Assembly (NCBI GenBank): GCA_947627665.1 | Contig: CANQWX010000001.1 | Span: 62,001-126,000 of the forward strand | Source of the DNA: an uncultured Clostridia bacterium | Lineage (GTDB): Bacteria; Bacillota; Clostridia; Christensenellales; Borkfalkiaceae | Length of the DNA: 64,000 bases | Direction: 5' to 3' | Part shown: positions 37,428 to 42,290 of the stretch, in pieces | How positions within the stretch are numbered: the first letter of the stretch is position 1 | Layout: each line of letters opens with the position of its first letter | Made by a program: the position numbers and the translations under genes | Notes under the pieces: model-generated | What the model was told of the DNA's origin: nothing | The model's database searches: none | The model's input: the letters and a program-made list of their open reading frames with translations, nothing else

Positions 37428-37583
37428 ATTTTTTTCTGCGGCGTCCGCAAAGCGCGGGAGGAGCGCGCTTTGTTGTGTAGATTTTTTTCACGAAATCCTC
37501 CGAAAATGGGGTAAAATTGGCGAAAAATTCCCCGTTTTTGAAAATTTTCTTCATTTTCGACCTTTTCACCTATTTATTTACAT

Positions 37584-37596
37584 AATTCGTCGAATT
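37584..37596 (+). promoter_or_regulatory. 0A-box-like palindrome upstream of spo0A
   Basis: AATTCGTCGAATT is an inverted repeat whose core TCGTCGAAT matches the Spo0A box TTGTCGAAA at 7 of 9 positions. It lies about 37 bp upstream of the -35 element and could allow autoregulation. Confidence 0.4.
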
Positions 37597-37632
37597 TTGT
37601 AAAAAATTCTTCGATTTTTTTACAAAAATACC

Positions 37633-37661
37633 TTTACAAGGGAAAAAGGATATTATATAAT
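37633..37661 (+). promoter_or_regulatory. Promoter of spo0A
   Basis: TTTACA (37633-37638), 17-bp spacer and consensus TATAAT (37656-37661), in an AT-rich stretch, about 33 nt before the ATG. A GGTGAGG site precedes the start. Confidence 0.75.
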
Positions 37662-37693: not shown

Positions 37694-38455
37694 ATGAAAC
37701 AGCTGTCCGTTCTCGTACTGGAAAGCAACACAAGTTTTGCGGAAGAACTAAAGACGGCGCTCGCTGCGCGCGACGGGATACGGGTCTGCGGCGTGACGGA
37801 CGACGGGGAGGCGGGCATGGAGCTGATCCGCACGCAGAATCCCGCCGTCGCGGTGGTCAGCCTGCTGCTGCGGAATTCGGACGGATTTTATGTGATGGAG
37901 ACCGCCAAAAAAGAGGGGAAGCGGACGGAGTTCATCGTGCTGGGCAATTTTGCCGACGATAAGATCATCGACCGCGCCATCTCGCTGGGTGCGCGCTATT
38001 ACCTGATGAAGCCCGTTTCGGCGGACGTGGTGGCGGACCGCGTGTCGGAGATGGGCGGCGATACGACGCCCGCCGTGCGGGAGACCGTGGAGCGCCGCCG
38101 CGCGGGTTCTCTCGACGAGCGCATCTCGGGCATCTTCATCTCCATCGGCATCCCGCCCCACATCAAGGGTTACAGCTATCTCAGGGAGGGCATCAAGATG
38201 GCGGTCGCCGACCCGCACGTCATCAACAACGTCACCAAGGGGCTGTATCCCGTCATCGGGGAGAAGTTCGGCACCACCGCGAGCAAGGTGGAGCGCGCCA
38301 TCCGCCATGCCATCGAGGTGGCATGGAACAGGGGCCGCATCGACGCGGTGAACGCCATTTTCGGCGCGCGCGTCTACCTCGGCACCGACAAGCCGACGAA
38401 CAGCGAATTCATCGCCCTCGTGGCGGACAAACTTCTGCTCGAGAGCATGGTTTGA
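37694..38455 (+). CDS. spo0A: Spo0A homologue with a degenerate receiver domain
   Basis: The 253-residue protein matches Spo0A along its length. The C-terminal DNA-binding domain is well conserved: GIPPHIKGYSYLREGI, TTASKVERAIRHAIEVAW recognition region and KPTNSEFIALVADKL. The receiver is not. At positions that align residue for residue with Bacillus subtilis Spo0A, D10 is Glu, D11 is Ser, the phosphoacceptor D56 is Ser (codon AGC at 37859-37861) and T84 is Gly; only K106 remains. It therefore probably cannot be activated by the normal phosphorelay and may act constitutively or through another signal. Whether this organism sporulates cannot be told from the window. The gene stands alone with its own promoter. 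Confidence 0.9.
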   Translation: MKQLSVLVLESNTSFAEELKTALAARDGIRVCGVTDDGEAGMELIRTQNPAVAVVSLLLRNSDGFYVMETAKKEGKRTEFIVLGNFADDKIIDRAISLGARYYLMKPVSADVVADRVSEMGGDTTPAVRETVERRRAGSLDERISGIFISIGIPPHIKGYSYLREGIKMAVADPHVINNVTKGLYPVIGEKFGTTASKVERAIRHAIEVAWNRGRIDAVNAIFGARVYLGTDKPTNSEFIALVADKLLLESMV

Positions 38456-38564
38456 CCGCGAAAGGGGACGGGCGCCGCCGCATGCGTTGCATGCGGCGGC
38501 GCCCTTTTTTGGCGTTCCCGCGGAAAAAAATCGGGACGGAACGCAAAATTCTCCCCTTATATTG

Positions 38565-38593
38565 TTGAAAAATCGGGACGAAAATGTTATAAT
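38565..38593 (+). promoter_or_regulatory. Promoter of the ftsK-recA operon
   Basis: TTGAAA (38565-38570), 17-bp spacer, consensus TATAAT (38588-38593), about 52 nt before the TTG start of the translocase gene. Confidence 0.8.
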
Positions 38594-38645
38594 GTACCGT
38601 GAGAAATCATCGCCCCCCTCGTCTTGGGGGAGAAGGAGAGATATT

Positions 38646-41600
38646 TTGAACGGTTACGGTCGCGGAGAGGACCGCCCCGCCAAGGAGAAGGCGTCCTCCG
38701 TTATCACGAGAGAAACATTCGGCATGACGCTTTTGCTGTTTTCGGTCGTCCTGCTCTTTATATCCGCACTCGGCTCCTATATGCTCGGGGAGATCGGGGT
38801 CGCCATCAACGCCTTTCTCTTGGGCGTGTTCGGCTTCTTCCTCTATCCCTTCCTGCTCTTCTGCGTCGGGCTTTCCCTGCGCATGATCACGGGGAAAAAG
38901 GTCTTTGCGGGCAAGCGCGTGCTGCTCACGATGGCGGTGGTCGCTTCCGTCTTTTTGGTCGTGCACCTTGCAACGAGCGCCCGCTTTACGGGCAACGGCT
39001 TCGGCGGGTATCTCGGCGGCTGCTGGAACGCCGCTGCGGCCTCCGCCGCGGAAGCCACGGGGGGCGGCGTCCTCTTCGGCGTCATCGTCTATCCCGTGCA
39101 AGCACTGCTCTCGCAGGTCGGCGCCTATCTCGTGTTCTCCCTGCTCATCGCGCTCACCGTGTTCTTCTTTTTGTGGACGACTCCGCTCAAGGACAAGCTC
39201 AAGCATTCCCGCGCGCCCAAGGCGCAGACGGTGGAAAAGGCCGCTCCCGCGCCCGTCCGCGGGCAAGAGGAGGGACCCCGCATGCCGCAGGGCGAAGACC
39301 GTCCGCGCCCGTCCGCACCCGGGAAACAGCCGCAGCAGCCCGCTTACGGGCAGTACGCGCAGCCGCAGCAGCCTGCTTACGGACAGTACGCGCAGCCGCA
39401 ACAGCCCGCTTACGGGCAGTACCAACAGCCGCAACAGCCCGCTTACGGGCAATACCAACAGCCGCAACAGCCTGCCTACGGGCAGTATACGCAGCCGCAG
39501 CAGCCCGCTTACGGGCAATACCAGCCGCAGCAGGGGAGGGCGGGGGCATACAACGCGCCCTACATGGACAATTTCGATCGCTACACCCCGCAGATGCCGC
39601 AGACGGCGCCCGTCGATCCCATGGACATCCTCTATGGCGATCCCGCCTCCAACTACCGCAACAATCCCATCTTCGACAAGGACTCCCGCTACAACACCCT
39701 GCGCCGCAGGAGCAGCGTGGAACCCGAGGATTCCCCTGTGCGCGCCAACCCGCGGGAGATCCCCTCGAGCTTTGTGCCTTCGCCCGACCGTTCCCGCGCG
39801 GGCTATTCCGAACGGTATGCCGCCGCGGCGGAGACGCCCCGTCCCGCCATGCCCCGCAAGGTGGTGGAACAGCGCGCCGAATCGCCCGCATCCGACCTCA
39901 ACTATTCCTTCAAACCTTACTATAAGGCGCCCGACTCCCCCGACGTGCAGGAGGCGCACGGCTTTTACGAAAACGACGTGCCCTTCGAGGAGGAATTTTC
40001 CTCCGCGCCCAACGTCGACGACGAGCCTGTCCGCACCGCGCCCGAATTGAGAAGAGCCAGCCCCGAGCCTTGCCCCGAGCCTGTGAAGAGCGAGCCGCGC
40101 GCAGAGCTTTTCCCGCGGGCGGAGGAACCCGTTTCCGCAGGCGCGCAGGACAGCCGTCGCACCGTCGGCTCCGACCGTGGATTCGGCTTCGGCAGCGACC
40201 GCAGCGGCGACCTCGGATTTACGAGCGACCGCGACCGCAGCGGCGACCTCGGATTTACAAGCGACCGCGACCGCAGCGGCGACCTCGGATTTACAAGCGA
40301 CCGCGACCGCAGCAGCGACCTTGGATTTACAAGCGACCGCGACCGTGGCGGCGATCTTGGGTTTACAAGCGACCGCGACCGTGGCGGCGACCTTGGATTT
40401 ACGAGCGACCGTGACCGCAGCAGCGATCTTGGTTTCGGCGGTGACCGCGACCGTGGCAGCGATCTCGGATTTACGAGCGACCGCGACCGCAGCGGTGATC
40501 TTGGGTTTACGAGCGACCGCGACCGTGGCGGCGACCTCGGGTTTACAAGCGACCGCGACCGCAGCGGTGATCTCGGATTTACGAGCGACCGCGACCGTGG
40601 CGGCGACCTCGGTTTCGGCGGCGACCGCGATCCCGGCAGGGAGGAGTTCGGCAGCCGCGCCGCGGAGGGGCTTTCCCGCGCCGATCTTTTCGACGACGAC
40701 GAACCCGAGACGGAACCCGATCTGCCCGCTATGCCCCGCACGCCCATGCGCCCCGTGCGCGAGGAAACGCACCCCGTTCCCCCGACGCCCGCGCCCAAGC
40801 CGCAGAAGCATATCTACCGCCCTTACCAGCGTCCCTCCCTCTCCATCTTCCACCAATACGACGAGAGCGTCACGGTCGACAGAGAGGAGATCGAACAGAA
40901 TTCACAGACGATCATCGATACGCTGGCGGGATTCCGTATGGATGTGGAAGTCATGCGGGTCGCGGTCGGACCTTCGGTCACGCGGTACGACATCAACATT
41001 CCCAAAAATATCTCCGTGGGAATGGTCACAAAAAAGGACGACGACGTCGCCATGCGTCTGCATGCGCGCGACGGCGTGAATATGTATTCCAACAACGAGT
41101 CGGGCTTCATCTCCATCGAGGTGCCCAACAAGAACCGCGCGATCGTGGGCGTGCGCTCCATTTTGCAGTCGGAGGAGTACCTCAAAGAGAAACCGGGCGC
41201 GCTGATGTTCGCCATCGGCAAGGACCTCGAGGGCAGATGCGTCTGCGGCAACATCACCAAGATGAAGCACATTCTCGTCGCGGGCGCCACCGGCTCGGGC
41301 AAGTCGGTGTGCCTCAACGCCATGCTGATCAGCCTCTTGTGCAAGTATTCCCCCGAGGATCTGCGCATCATCCTCATCGACCCCAAGAAGGTGGAATTCA
41401 CCATCTACGACGGGCTGCCCCACCTCATGATCAACGAGATCATCGCCGACGCGCAGAAGGCGGTCACCGCCCTCAACTGGGCGATCAAGGAGATGGAGCG
41501 GCGGTACGAGCTGTTCGAGCAAAAGACCCGCTCGGGCGTGGTGGTGCGCGAGCTGGACGAATACAACCGCCACCTGAATGAGGACGAGCAGAAACTGCCC

Positions 41601-42290
41601 AAGATCGTCATCGTCGTGGACGAGCTTGCCGATCTCATGGCGGTCGCCAAGAAGGACATCGAAGAGCGCATCCAGCGGCTCACGCAGAAGGCGAGGGCGG
41701 CGGGCATCCATCTCGTCATCGCCACCCAGCGTCCCTCGGTGGACGTCATCACGGGCGTCATCAAGGGCAATCTGCCCACCCGTATGGCGTTCCGCGTCAT
41801 ACAGGAAGTGGACAGCCGCACGATCCTCGACGAGTCGGGCGCGCAAAAACTGCTCGGCAACGGCGATATGCTCTACCGCACCGAGGGCATGTTCAACTGC
41901 CTGCGCGTGCAGGGCGCCTTTTTGAGTTCGGAAGAGGTGCAGGCGGTGCTCACCGAGATCAAGGCGAACAACGAGGCCTATTTCGATCCCGCCGTGGCGG
42001 ACTTTATCAACAACACCCAGTCGGGAGGGGAGGACGGCGACGCGGAAGGCATGGAGGACGGCGAAGCCAACACCGAATATATCCGCGCCCTCGGCATGGT
42101 CGTGAAATTGGGACAGGCCTCCATCTCCCTCATCCAGCGCAAGTGCTCCATCGGCTACAACCATGCGGGCAAGATCATCGAATGGATGGAGCTTATGGGC
42201 TATATCTCGCCCTTCGACGGCAAGGCCAAGGCGAGAACGGTGCTCCTCACCAAGGAGGAATATGAAAGCAAGTACGGGCCTCTCGACTGA
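38646..42290 (+). CDS. FtsK/SpoIIIE-family DNA translocase with long repetitive linker
   Basis: The 1214-residue protein has about four N-terminal membrane spans (20-180), a low-complexity linker of about 500 residues, then the FtsK motor. The motor has the alpha domain (from about 735), Walker A GATGSGKS (880-887, K886), Walker B IVIVVDELADLM and a C-terminal winged-helix gamma domain (SISLIQRKCSIGYNHAGKIIEWME). It pumps chromosomal DNA through the division or sporulation septum. The linker holds six PAYGQY-type units and about twelve SDRDRSGDLGFT-type units. Translation most likely starts at the TTG with AAGGAGAG upstream; the in-frame ATG at 38592 overlaps the -10 element. The typical SpoIIIE is about 800 residues, so the excess is the linker. 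Confidence 0.92.
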   Translation: MNGYGRGEDRPAKEKASSVITRETFGMTLLLFSVVLLFISALGSYMLGEIGVAINAFLLGVFGFFLYPFLLFCVGLSLRMITGKKVFAGKRVLLTMAVVASVFLVVHLATSARFTGNGFGGYLGGCWNAAAASAAEATGGGVLFGVIVYPVQALLSQVGAYLVFSLLIALTVFFFLWTTPLKDKLKHSRAPKAQTVEKAAPAPVRGQEEGPRMPQGEDRPRPSAPGKQPQQPAYGQYAQPQQPAYGQYAQPQQPAYGQYQQPQQPAYGQYQQPQQPAYGQYTQPQQPAYGQYQPQQGRAGAYNAPYMDNFDRYTPQMPQTAPVDPMDILYGDPASNYRNNPIFDKDSRYNTLRRRSSVEPEDSPVRANPREIPSSFVPSPDRSRAGYSERYAAAAETPRPAMPRKVVEQRAESPASDLNYSFKPYYKAPDSPDVQEAHGFYENDVPFEEEFSSAPNVDDEPVRTAPELRRASPEPCPEPVKSEPRAELFPRAEEPVSAGAQDSRRTVGSDRGFGFGSDRSGDLGFTSDRDRSGDLGFTSDRDRSGDLGFTSDRDRSSDLGFTSDRDRGGDLGFTSDRDRGGDLGFTSDRDRSSDLGFGGDRDRGSDLGFTSDRDRSGDLGFTSDRDRGGDLGFTSDRDRSGDLGFTSDRDRGGDLGFGGDRDPGREEFGSRAAEGLSRADLFDDDEPETEPDLPAMPRTPMRPVREETHPVPPTPAPKPQKHIYRPYQRPSLSIFHQYDESVTVDREEIEQNSQTIIDTLAGFRMDVEVMRVAVGPSVTRYDINIPKNISVGMVTKKDDDVAMRLHARDGVNMYSNNESGFISIEVPNKNRAIVGVRSILQSEEYLKEKPGALMFAIGKDLEGRCVCGNITKMKHILVAGATGSGKSVCLNAMLISLLCKYSPEDLRIILIDPKKVEFTIYDGLPHLMINEIIADAQKAVTALNWAIKEMERRYELFEQKTRSGVVVRELDEYNRHLNEDEQKLPKIVIVVDELADLMAVAKKDIEERIQRLTQKARAAGIHLVIATQRPSVDVITGVIKGNLPTRMAFRVIQEVDSRTILDESGAQKLLGNGDMLYRTEGMFNCLRVQGAFLSSEEVQAVLTEIKANNEAYFDPAVADFINNTQSGGEDGDAEGMEDGEANTEYIRALGMVVKLGQASISLIQRKCSIGYNHAGKIIEWMELMGYISPFDGKAKARTVLLTKEEYESKYGPLD
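39339..39521 (+). repeat. 33-bp minisatellite in the translocase gene (PAYGQY units)
   Basis: Six tandem units encode PAYGQYxQPQQ or close variants. All units keep the reading frame and show mostly synonymous differences (CAG/CAA, CCC/CCT). Confidence 0.85.
40191..40635 (+). repeat. 36-bp minisatellite in the translocase gene (SDRDRSGDLGFT units)
   Basis: About twelve tandem 12-residue units of the form SDRDR(S/G)(G/S)DLGF(T/G). The Asp/Arg alternation makes a mixed-charge, disordered linker directly before the motor. Units differ by single bases, indicating recent expansion. Confidence 0.88.

Follow-up and report, generated by a model that had tools for sequence, protein, structure and literature searches.

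A Spo0A without its phosphoacceptor aspartate that probably still starts early sporulation in the Clostridia family Borkfalkiaceae

According to the accessible part of a 2024 review, all endospore formers start sporulation through Spo0A, which is activated by phosphorylation at a conserved Asp (PMC11210211). The spo0A gene described here raises the question of how this master regulator could act once that residue is gone. Identified by its open reading frame and profile matches, the gene encodes 253 amino acids at positions 37694..38455 of the window, by which we mean the whole stretch of 64,000 nucleotides that was analysed; the gene, its domains and codons, and the promoter elements given below lie on its forward strand. 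The receiver domain (amino acids 4-120; 37703..38053) has a predicted (beta-alpha)5 fold and a lost active site, and it is followed by a Spo0A_C DNA-binding domain (amino acids 139-250; 38108..38443). A receiver activated by phosphorylation carries an acidic pair (D/E, D/E) at positions 10 and 11, Asp56, Ser/Thr84 and Lys106. The window protein reads E, S, S, G and K at these positions: the Glu10 and Ser11 codons occupy 37721..37726, Ser56 is encoded by AGC at 37859..37861, Gly84 by 37943..37945, and the retained Lys106 by 38009..38011. The initial annotation had described a receiver without its phosphoacceptor and most of its active site, and this description stands. With a receiver fold that lacks the phosphoacceptor, the protein belongs with the aspartate-less, or pseudo-, receivers.

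By profile the protein is an ortholog of Spo0A. The open reading frame scores 235.7 bits against the NCBIfam equivalog model TIGR02875 (cut-off 200), 131.6 bits against Pfam Spo0A_C (cut-off 25) and 48.9 bits against Pfam Response_reg (cut-off 30.2), and no gap is needed to align its DNA-binding domain, whose recognition region is conserved, with 1lq1, a DNA-bound structure of Spo0A. An AlphaFold2 model (29 sequences; mean pLDDT 83.3, pTM 0.53) displays the alternation of strands and helices typical of receivers. Using Foldseek, we find that the C-terminal half of the model matches the Spo0A DNA-binding domain (1fc3/1lq1) at 55-59% identity, and that the receiver half matches various receivers, among them the Spo0A receivers 5wq0 and 1qmp, to which it is only ~20% identical; the receiver fold is predicted to be intact. 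Spo0A_C occurs once in the window genome (1.81 Mb, 46 contigs), and the second, canonical Spo0A that had been considered as a competing explanation was not found in this 89%-complete genome. Among ten genomes of the genus, the window genome included, nine have one Spo0A_C match and one (G066) has three. Beyond the gene, at 38487-42290 of the window, lies an open reading frame, presumably FtsK/SpoIIIE-like, in which long near-repeats (PQQPAYGQY and SDRDRSGDLGFT units) precede the C-terminal part. As for gene order, aspS was found next to spo0A in only 9 of the 80 named loci, a number of which are short.

If the receiver had simply decayed, constraint on it should be relaxed. We compared 72 distinct genus-level sequences from Candidatus Gallimonas and its kin, comprising the g1 sequences and the named loci L082-L148, L151 and L152. 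Glu10, Gly84 and Lys106 are present in all 72, and Ser56 and Asn85 each in 69. Codon 56 is AGC or AGT in those 69 and encodes Asp once and Asn twice in the remaining three, which excludes the sequencing error at 37859-37861 that had been a concern. Both the acidic pair and Asp56 are absent from 71 of the 72 sequences, and the 72nd has Asp56 only. Over 440 genus-level pairs, the receiver has a median dN/dS of 0.24 and the DNA-binding domain one of 0.09; in the twelve closest pairs, the receiver values are 0.01-0.15. At a threshold of at least 95% conservation within the genus, 84 of 112 DNA-binding positions and 38 of 114 receiver positions are conserved, and the receiver set contains E10, N12, S56, G84, N85, D88, D89, Y102, Y103 and K106. 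Thus the earlier statement that Lys106 and the whole DNA-binding half are kept proved correct, and position 56 turned out to be a near-fixed Ser in relatives with dN/dS well below 1. As the DNA-binding half is intact and constrained and the gene is under purifying selection, simple decay is unlikely; judged from sequence, Spo0A of this genus is neither a pseudogene nor a freely drifting receiver. One close relative, L088 (82% identity), carries Asp56 within an otherwise Glu-Ser-Gly-Lys site, and two others have Asn, so Ser56 itself is probably not the working part.

How far does the loss extend? The named relatives at 73-75% identity are Candidatus Gallimonas merdigallinarum, G. merdae and G. 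caecicola, followed more distantly by Borkfalkia (64%) and Coproplasma (57%); the named relatives are metagenome-assembled. The family, one of mostly uncultured gut bacteria, is on this basis probably Borkfalkiaceae, of the order Christensenellales. We assembled a family set of 111 Spo0A sequences from 110 genomes, the better-scoring ones of 201 searched, with genera g13 and g15 falling outside it, and a comparison set of 50 sequences from 27 other families of the order, one of which (L239) is truncated. The window sequence itself (L001) and a second copy in G145 (L046) are among the 111 and stand outside the tree, selection and promoter counts, in which identical sequences were counted once and upstream stretches shorter than 100 bp were left out. 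A complete site (D/E, D/E, D, S/T, K) is found in 1 of the 111 better-scoring family sequences, compared to 42 of the 50 from other families, and Asp56 in 21 of the 111, compared to 46 of the 50, the truncated one counted. The sole canonical sequence of the family is a long-branched row from genus g17. Among the 80 named loci, none has a canonical site and one has Asp56. In a quick tree from which the five site columns were left out, the 110 family rows fall on one branch (SH-aLRT 98); across all 159 rows of the tree, position 56 underwent at least 12 changes between Asp and another residue and 29 changes of letter.

The replacements differ by genus. The window genus has Ser at position 56, whereas g4 and g6 have Glu and g7 has mostly Glu or Gly. 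Gly is found in 6/10 sequences of g3, 6/8 of g9 and 7/9 of g10; g8 has Asn or Asp, and all six sequences read from g2 have Asp, within a site of Q-D-D-S/C-K. Across the family, S, G, N, E, D and W all occur at this position. On these alignments, the loss of the active site characterises the family, in which position 56 has taken on several residues, and is not the quirk of a single genome. We infer that Spo0A here has long been able to do without phosphorylation, with each genus settling on its own residue. The near-fixation of Ser56 in the window genus (69/72) would fit phosphorylation of that serine by a PrkC-type Ser/Thr kinase in place of the aspartate, but with Gly, Asn or Glu in sister genera, and one Asp and two Asn within the genus itself, we consider this highly improbable. 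Just as improbable is conditional, weak phosphotransfer through a residual site or through the Asp of some members, which would make the family's Spo0A merely a divergent normal one: the 21 better-scoring family sequences with Asp56 (g2 among them) and the canonical g17 sequence favor it, but it is opposed by the 71 window-genus sequences that have neither acidic pair nor Asp56 and by the 72nd, which has Asp56 only.

The glutamates deserve separate mention. In the sister genera g4, g6 and part of g7 (e.g. L031, L026, L007), Glu56 mostly accompanies a Gln-Asp pair and is a possible natural phosphomimic. Compared with the Glu56 genera (g4, g6 and part of g5 and g7), the window genus has the same gene in the same family, and Asp56 is absent from both; Glu could mimic the phosphorylated state, whereas the Ser of the window genus does not. 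Exchanging Asp for Glu alone often fails to activate receivers, and Spo0A is named as a case in the part of the source available (PMC4395418).

If Spo0A is still a sporulation regulator, then sporulation genes should accompany it. The initial annotation had proposed a search of the genome for them, and we find that the window genome encodes spoIVA (5.9e-99), spoIIAB directly upstream of a sigF-like sigma factor gene on contig C30, another sigF/sigG-type sigma on contig C13, and spoIIGA, spoIIE and spoVAC. Thus, Spo0A co-occurs with sigF-like genes, spoIIE, spoIIGA and spoIVA, as expected of an ortholog. Within the family, spoIVA is present in 18/18 genomes (one match is weak), spoIIAB over cut-off in 38/45, and spoIIGA and spoVAC in 43/45 each. 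At least two sigF/sigG-like sigmas of at least 240 bits on the sigF model occur in 31/41 genomes, and none of them reaches the sigF cut-off of 321. Matches to spoIIE were found in 43/45 family genomes, all under the curated cut-off, as are those of 5/7 other-family genomes. The late end of the programme looks different. SASP was found in 0/45 family genomes, compared to 5/7 from other families, and the GPR protease in 2/45, compared to 7/7; the 89%-complete window genome yielded neither SASP nor GPR, the pair expected of a complete classical endospore former. By contrast, the accessible part of a survey of metagenome-assembled genomes, some of them placed with Borkfalkiaceae, reports gpr as present in its Clostridia (PMC11536998), and Borkfalkia ceftriaxensis is described as spore-forming by its genes in the part of its report available (PMC6839795). 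The two GPR-bearing genomes belong to genera g2 and g18, in which 6/6 and 1/1 sequences have Asp56. We dropped a rule linking GPR to Asp56, as G007 (Asp56, L163) and G017 (genus g17, its one sequence canonical) are without GPR. From these gene contents, the lineage retains early and middle sporulation genes. Since SASP is found in none of the 45 genomes and GPR in two, completion of a classical spore is doubtful; the mostly kept SpoIVA and SpoVA genes suggest altered or SASP-free spores in the family.

A Spo0A that still acts on these genes should leave its binding sites upstream of them. We took the core of the Spo0A box to be TTCGAC or GTCGAA and counted cores 20-150 bp upstream of each start, relative to dinucleotide-preserving shuffles; starts were assigned by script according to start codons and RBS-like letters, with errors of at least a few codons in some cases. 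Within the genus, cores precede spo0A in 53/72 cases (6.7 in shuffles), spoIIAA in 14/20 (2.2), spoIIE in 11/12 (1.4) and spoIIGA in 3/12 (1.0). In further genus genomes, examined to 160 bp, they precede spoIIE in 11/15, one of these at a different place (-153), and spoIIAA in 4/5. Among other genera of the family, cores are again found at spo0A (52/86; 3.8 in shuffles) and spoIIAA (4/6; 0.5), but counts at spoIIE are near background (2/11; 0.7), and spoIIGA has cores in 2/11 (0.5). The box cores expected of a Spo0A ortholog at spoIIA, spoIIE and spo0A are present in the genus; in the rest of the family, spo0A and spoIIAA have them and spoIIE scarcely does. Other families, with cores at 0/4 spoIIAA, 0/6 spoIIE and 1/5 spoIIGA promoters, offer too few cases to judge.

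The window genome follows the pattern of its genus: TTCGACA stands before spoIIAA (L260, position 176) and before spoIIE (L356, at about -88), near the usual places, and a TTCGAC core lies upstream of spo0A at 37556..37561, with a box-like sequence, TTCGTCGAA, at 37586..37594. As controls, a core is present at 1 of 13 response-regulator promoters of the genus, and spo0A alone among 29 scored open reading frames of the window has one upstream. As the 7-mer TTCGACA is not enriched over the window (7 found, 9.5 expected), the argument rests on the position of the boxes, not their number. A TGNCGAA-type box at 10 of 12 genus spoIIGA promoters was left out of the count, because in most cases it is a TTCGGCA within a hairpin that runs into T's. 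By eye, a conserved terminator-like hairpin around GGCATATTCCGACGGAATATGCC, then T's, lies ~75 bp before spoIIGA in the genus (e.g. L290 near 1421), where it overlaps the box-like TTCGGCA. With sporulation genes present and box cores before spoIIAA, spoIIE and spo0A, the targets of Spo0A look unchanged and its input changed. The initial annotation had proposed a repurposed master regulator; the vanished active site and the intact DNA-binding half are as it described, but persisting sporulation genes and predicted boxes do not fit the word repurposed.

The same data bear on whether this Spo0A is a relic in slow decay, persisting by inertia in a family that is losing sporulation. The scarcity of SASP and GPR, the variable residue at position 56 and a SpoIIE under its curated cut-off family-wide all lean that way, yet the last also holds for most of the other-family genomes examined. 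The lack of a full Spo0A match over cut-off in 5 of 29 genus genomes (G111, G160, G165, G190, G200; 93-97% complete) also speaks for a relic; family-wide, 25 of 201 genomes lack one. These missing matches may be gaps in draft assemblies or real losses. Some of the five genus genomes have boxed spoIIE or spoIIAA promoters. Against a relic stand purifying selection on both Spo0A domains, the conserved box cores of the genus and the open frames of many sporulation genes across it, and we regard this explanation as quite unlikely.

Directly upstream of spo0A, the promoter has a feature of its own. A TTTACA -35-like element (37633..37638) and a TATAAT -10-like element (37656..37661) are separated by a 17-bp spacer, and palindromic TTTTGTACAAAA repeats with a 21-bp phase immediately precede them, in the same place in relatives. 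In the window, the first copy, read from the sequence, is degenerate (37574..37585, 9/12 match to TTTTGTACAAAA), the second is TTTTGTAAAAAA (37595..37606), and the third, TTTTTTACAAAA (37616..37627), follows 21 bp after the second. The consensus of 69 genus spo0A promoters, which leaves out L089 and L145 because they are without a -35/-10 match, reads TTCGACA, then three TTTTGTACAAAA-type repeats, then the -35. Scored against shuffles, a three-site array reaches p<=0.02 in 68/71 genus, 72/108 family and 8/49 other-family rows. With up to two mismatches, TTTTGTACAAAA matches the window 7 times (1.3 expected), and only the two matches at spo0A have a single mismatch. These patterns suggest an array of operator sites controlling the level of Spo0A, which agrees with the 'amount' option among the modes of control that the initial annotation had listed. 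Spo0A itself is a possible binder, because TTTTGTACAAAA differs from the T/A-flanked box TTTTGTCGAAAA at two central bases only. We did not retain a tie between the array and the atypical receiver: its Fisher p is 8e-9, but it rests on only 3 independent pairs on supported branches, and a clade effect is possible. PhoB and YycF models pick up two of the paired response regulators in the genus, with scores below their cut-offs. A literature search for the string TTTTGTACAAAA brought up no apparently relevant paper.

Would a change of input be visible in the histidine kinases? We surveyed 80 kinase loci, 79 found by HisKA and one, the fifth kinase of the window genome, by its HATPase match, calling a kinase paired if a receiver frame lies on the same strand within 600 bp. 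With canonical relatives included, 69 of the 80 are paired and 11 are hybrids. In seven genomes of the genus, HisKA was matched only once, in a kinase with a response regulator of its own. The loss of orphan kinases finds no support as a cause, since the 26 kinases examined from canonical families (G201 6/11, G216 4/8, G232 7/12, G231 6/6, G212 3/3) are also paired or hybrid. The window genome has three two-receiver hybrid kinases (G000:C4:61556, C5:49309 and C17:11018; L350-L352), which the seven genomes with one HisKA match lack.

A receiver without a phosphoacceptor could instead be gated by a ligand or partner, with dimerisation switched by a small molecule or protein bound in the emptied pocket (E10, N12, S56, G84, N85, K106). 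All six residues fall in the receiver set with 95% conservation within the genus, and ligand-binding pseudo-receivers are known, as the accessible part of one paper describes (PMC12632262). However, the presence of four of the five active-site positions in that set is only weakly above chance, 38 of 114 receiver positions being in it, and a shared ligand would not predict a residue at position 56 that varies between genera from S, G and N to E, D and W. We treat gating of this kind as a tentative possibility.

Our preferred reading, to which we give a probability of roughly two in three, is that this is an orthologous Spo0A with a pseudo-receiver, independent of Asp56, that still starts early sporulation and whose output is set mainly by its amount. 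In such a protein, no phosphoryl group would be transferred to position 56 and there would be no acidic pair to bind metal, the predicted fold being kept under purifying selection. Active without phosphorylation, Spo0A would bind through its DNA-binding domain to the boxes before spoIIA, spoIIE and spo0A, and so start the early sporulation programme; from the genes and boxes, it probably still does so, and not via Asp56. Autoregulation and the repeat array on the spo0A promoter would mainly set the output through the amount of Spo0A, and a ligand or partner of the receiver may tune it. More speculatively, and in our view unlikely in this full form, the whole family may have shifted its sporulation decision from Spo0A phosphorylation to Spo0A dose, by means of an autoregulated promoter and a phased operator array, and may run an altered, SASP-less programme that leads, for example, to SASP-free spores or internal daughter cells.

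Compared with Spo0A of Bacillus and Clostridia (1lq1, 1fc3, 1qmp, 5wq0), the window protein is alike in domain order, DNA-binding domain, box cores and single copy in its genome, but it lacks the phosphoacceptor, the acidic pair and the Ser/Thr switch, and its receiver is about 20% identical. With the aspartate-less atypical response regulators ChxR, RitR, FruA and CmrT, as the accessible parts of two papers present them (PMC4395418, PMC12632262), it has in common a receiver fold without catalytic residues and a DNA-binding domain; here, in contrast, the sporulation master regulator itself is affected, as the only copy found, and in most of a family. By title and the start of the abstract, no paper found in the open-access literature describes a Spo0A that lacks its phosphoacceptor. 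This family looks like a naturally occurring exception to the rule that Spo0A works through phospho-Asp, in which early sporulation genes persist and, in the genus, box cores do too, and through it the rewiring of a developmental decision can be put to the test. The presence of spo0A is a first sporulation criterion in the available part of a survey of metagenome-assembled genomes (PMC11536998); as this family cautions, it need not imply classical regulation or a classical spore.
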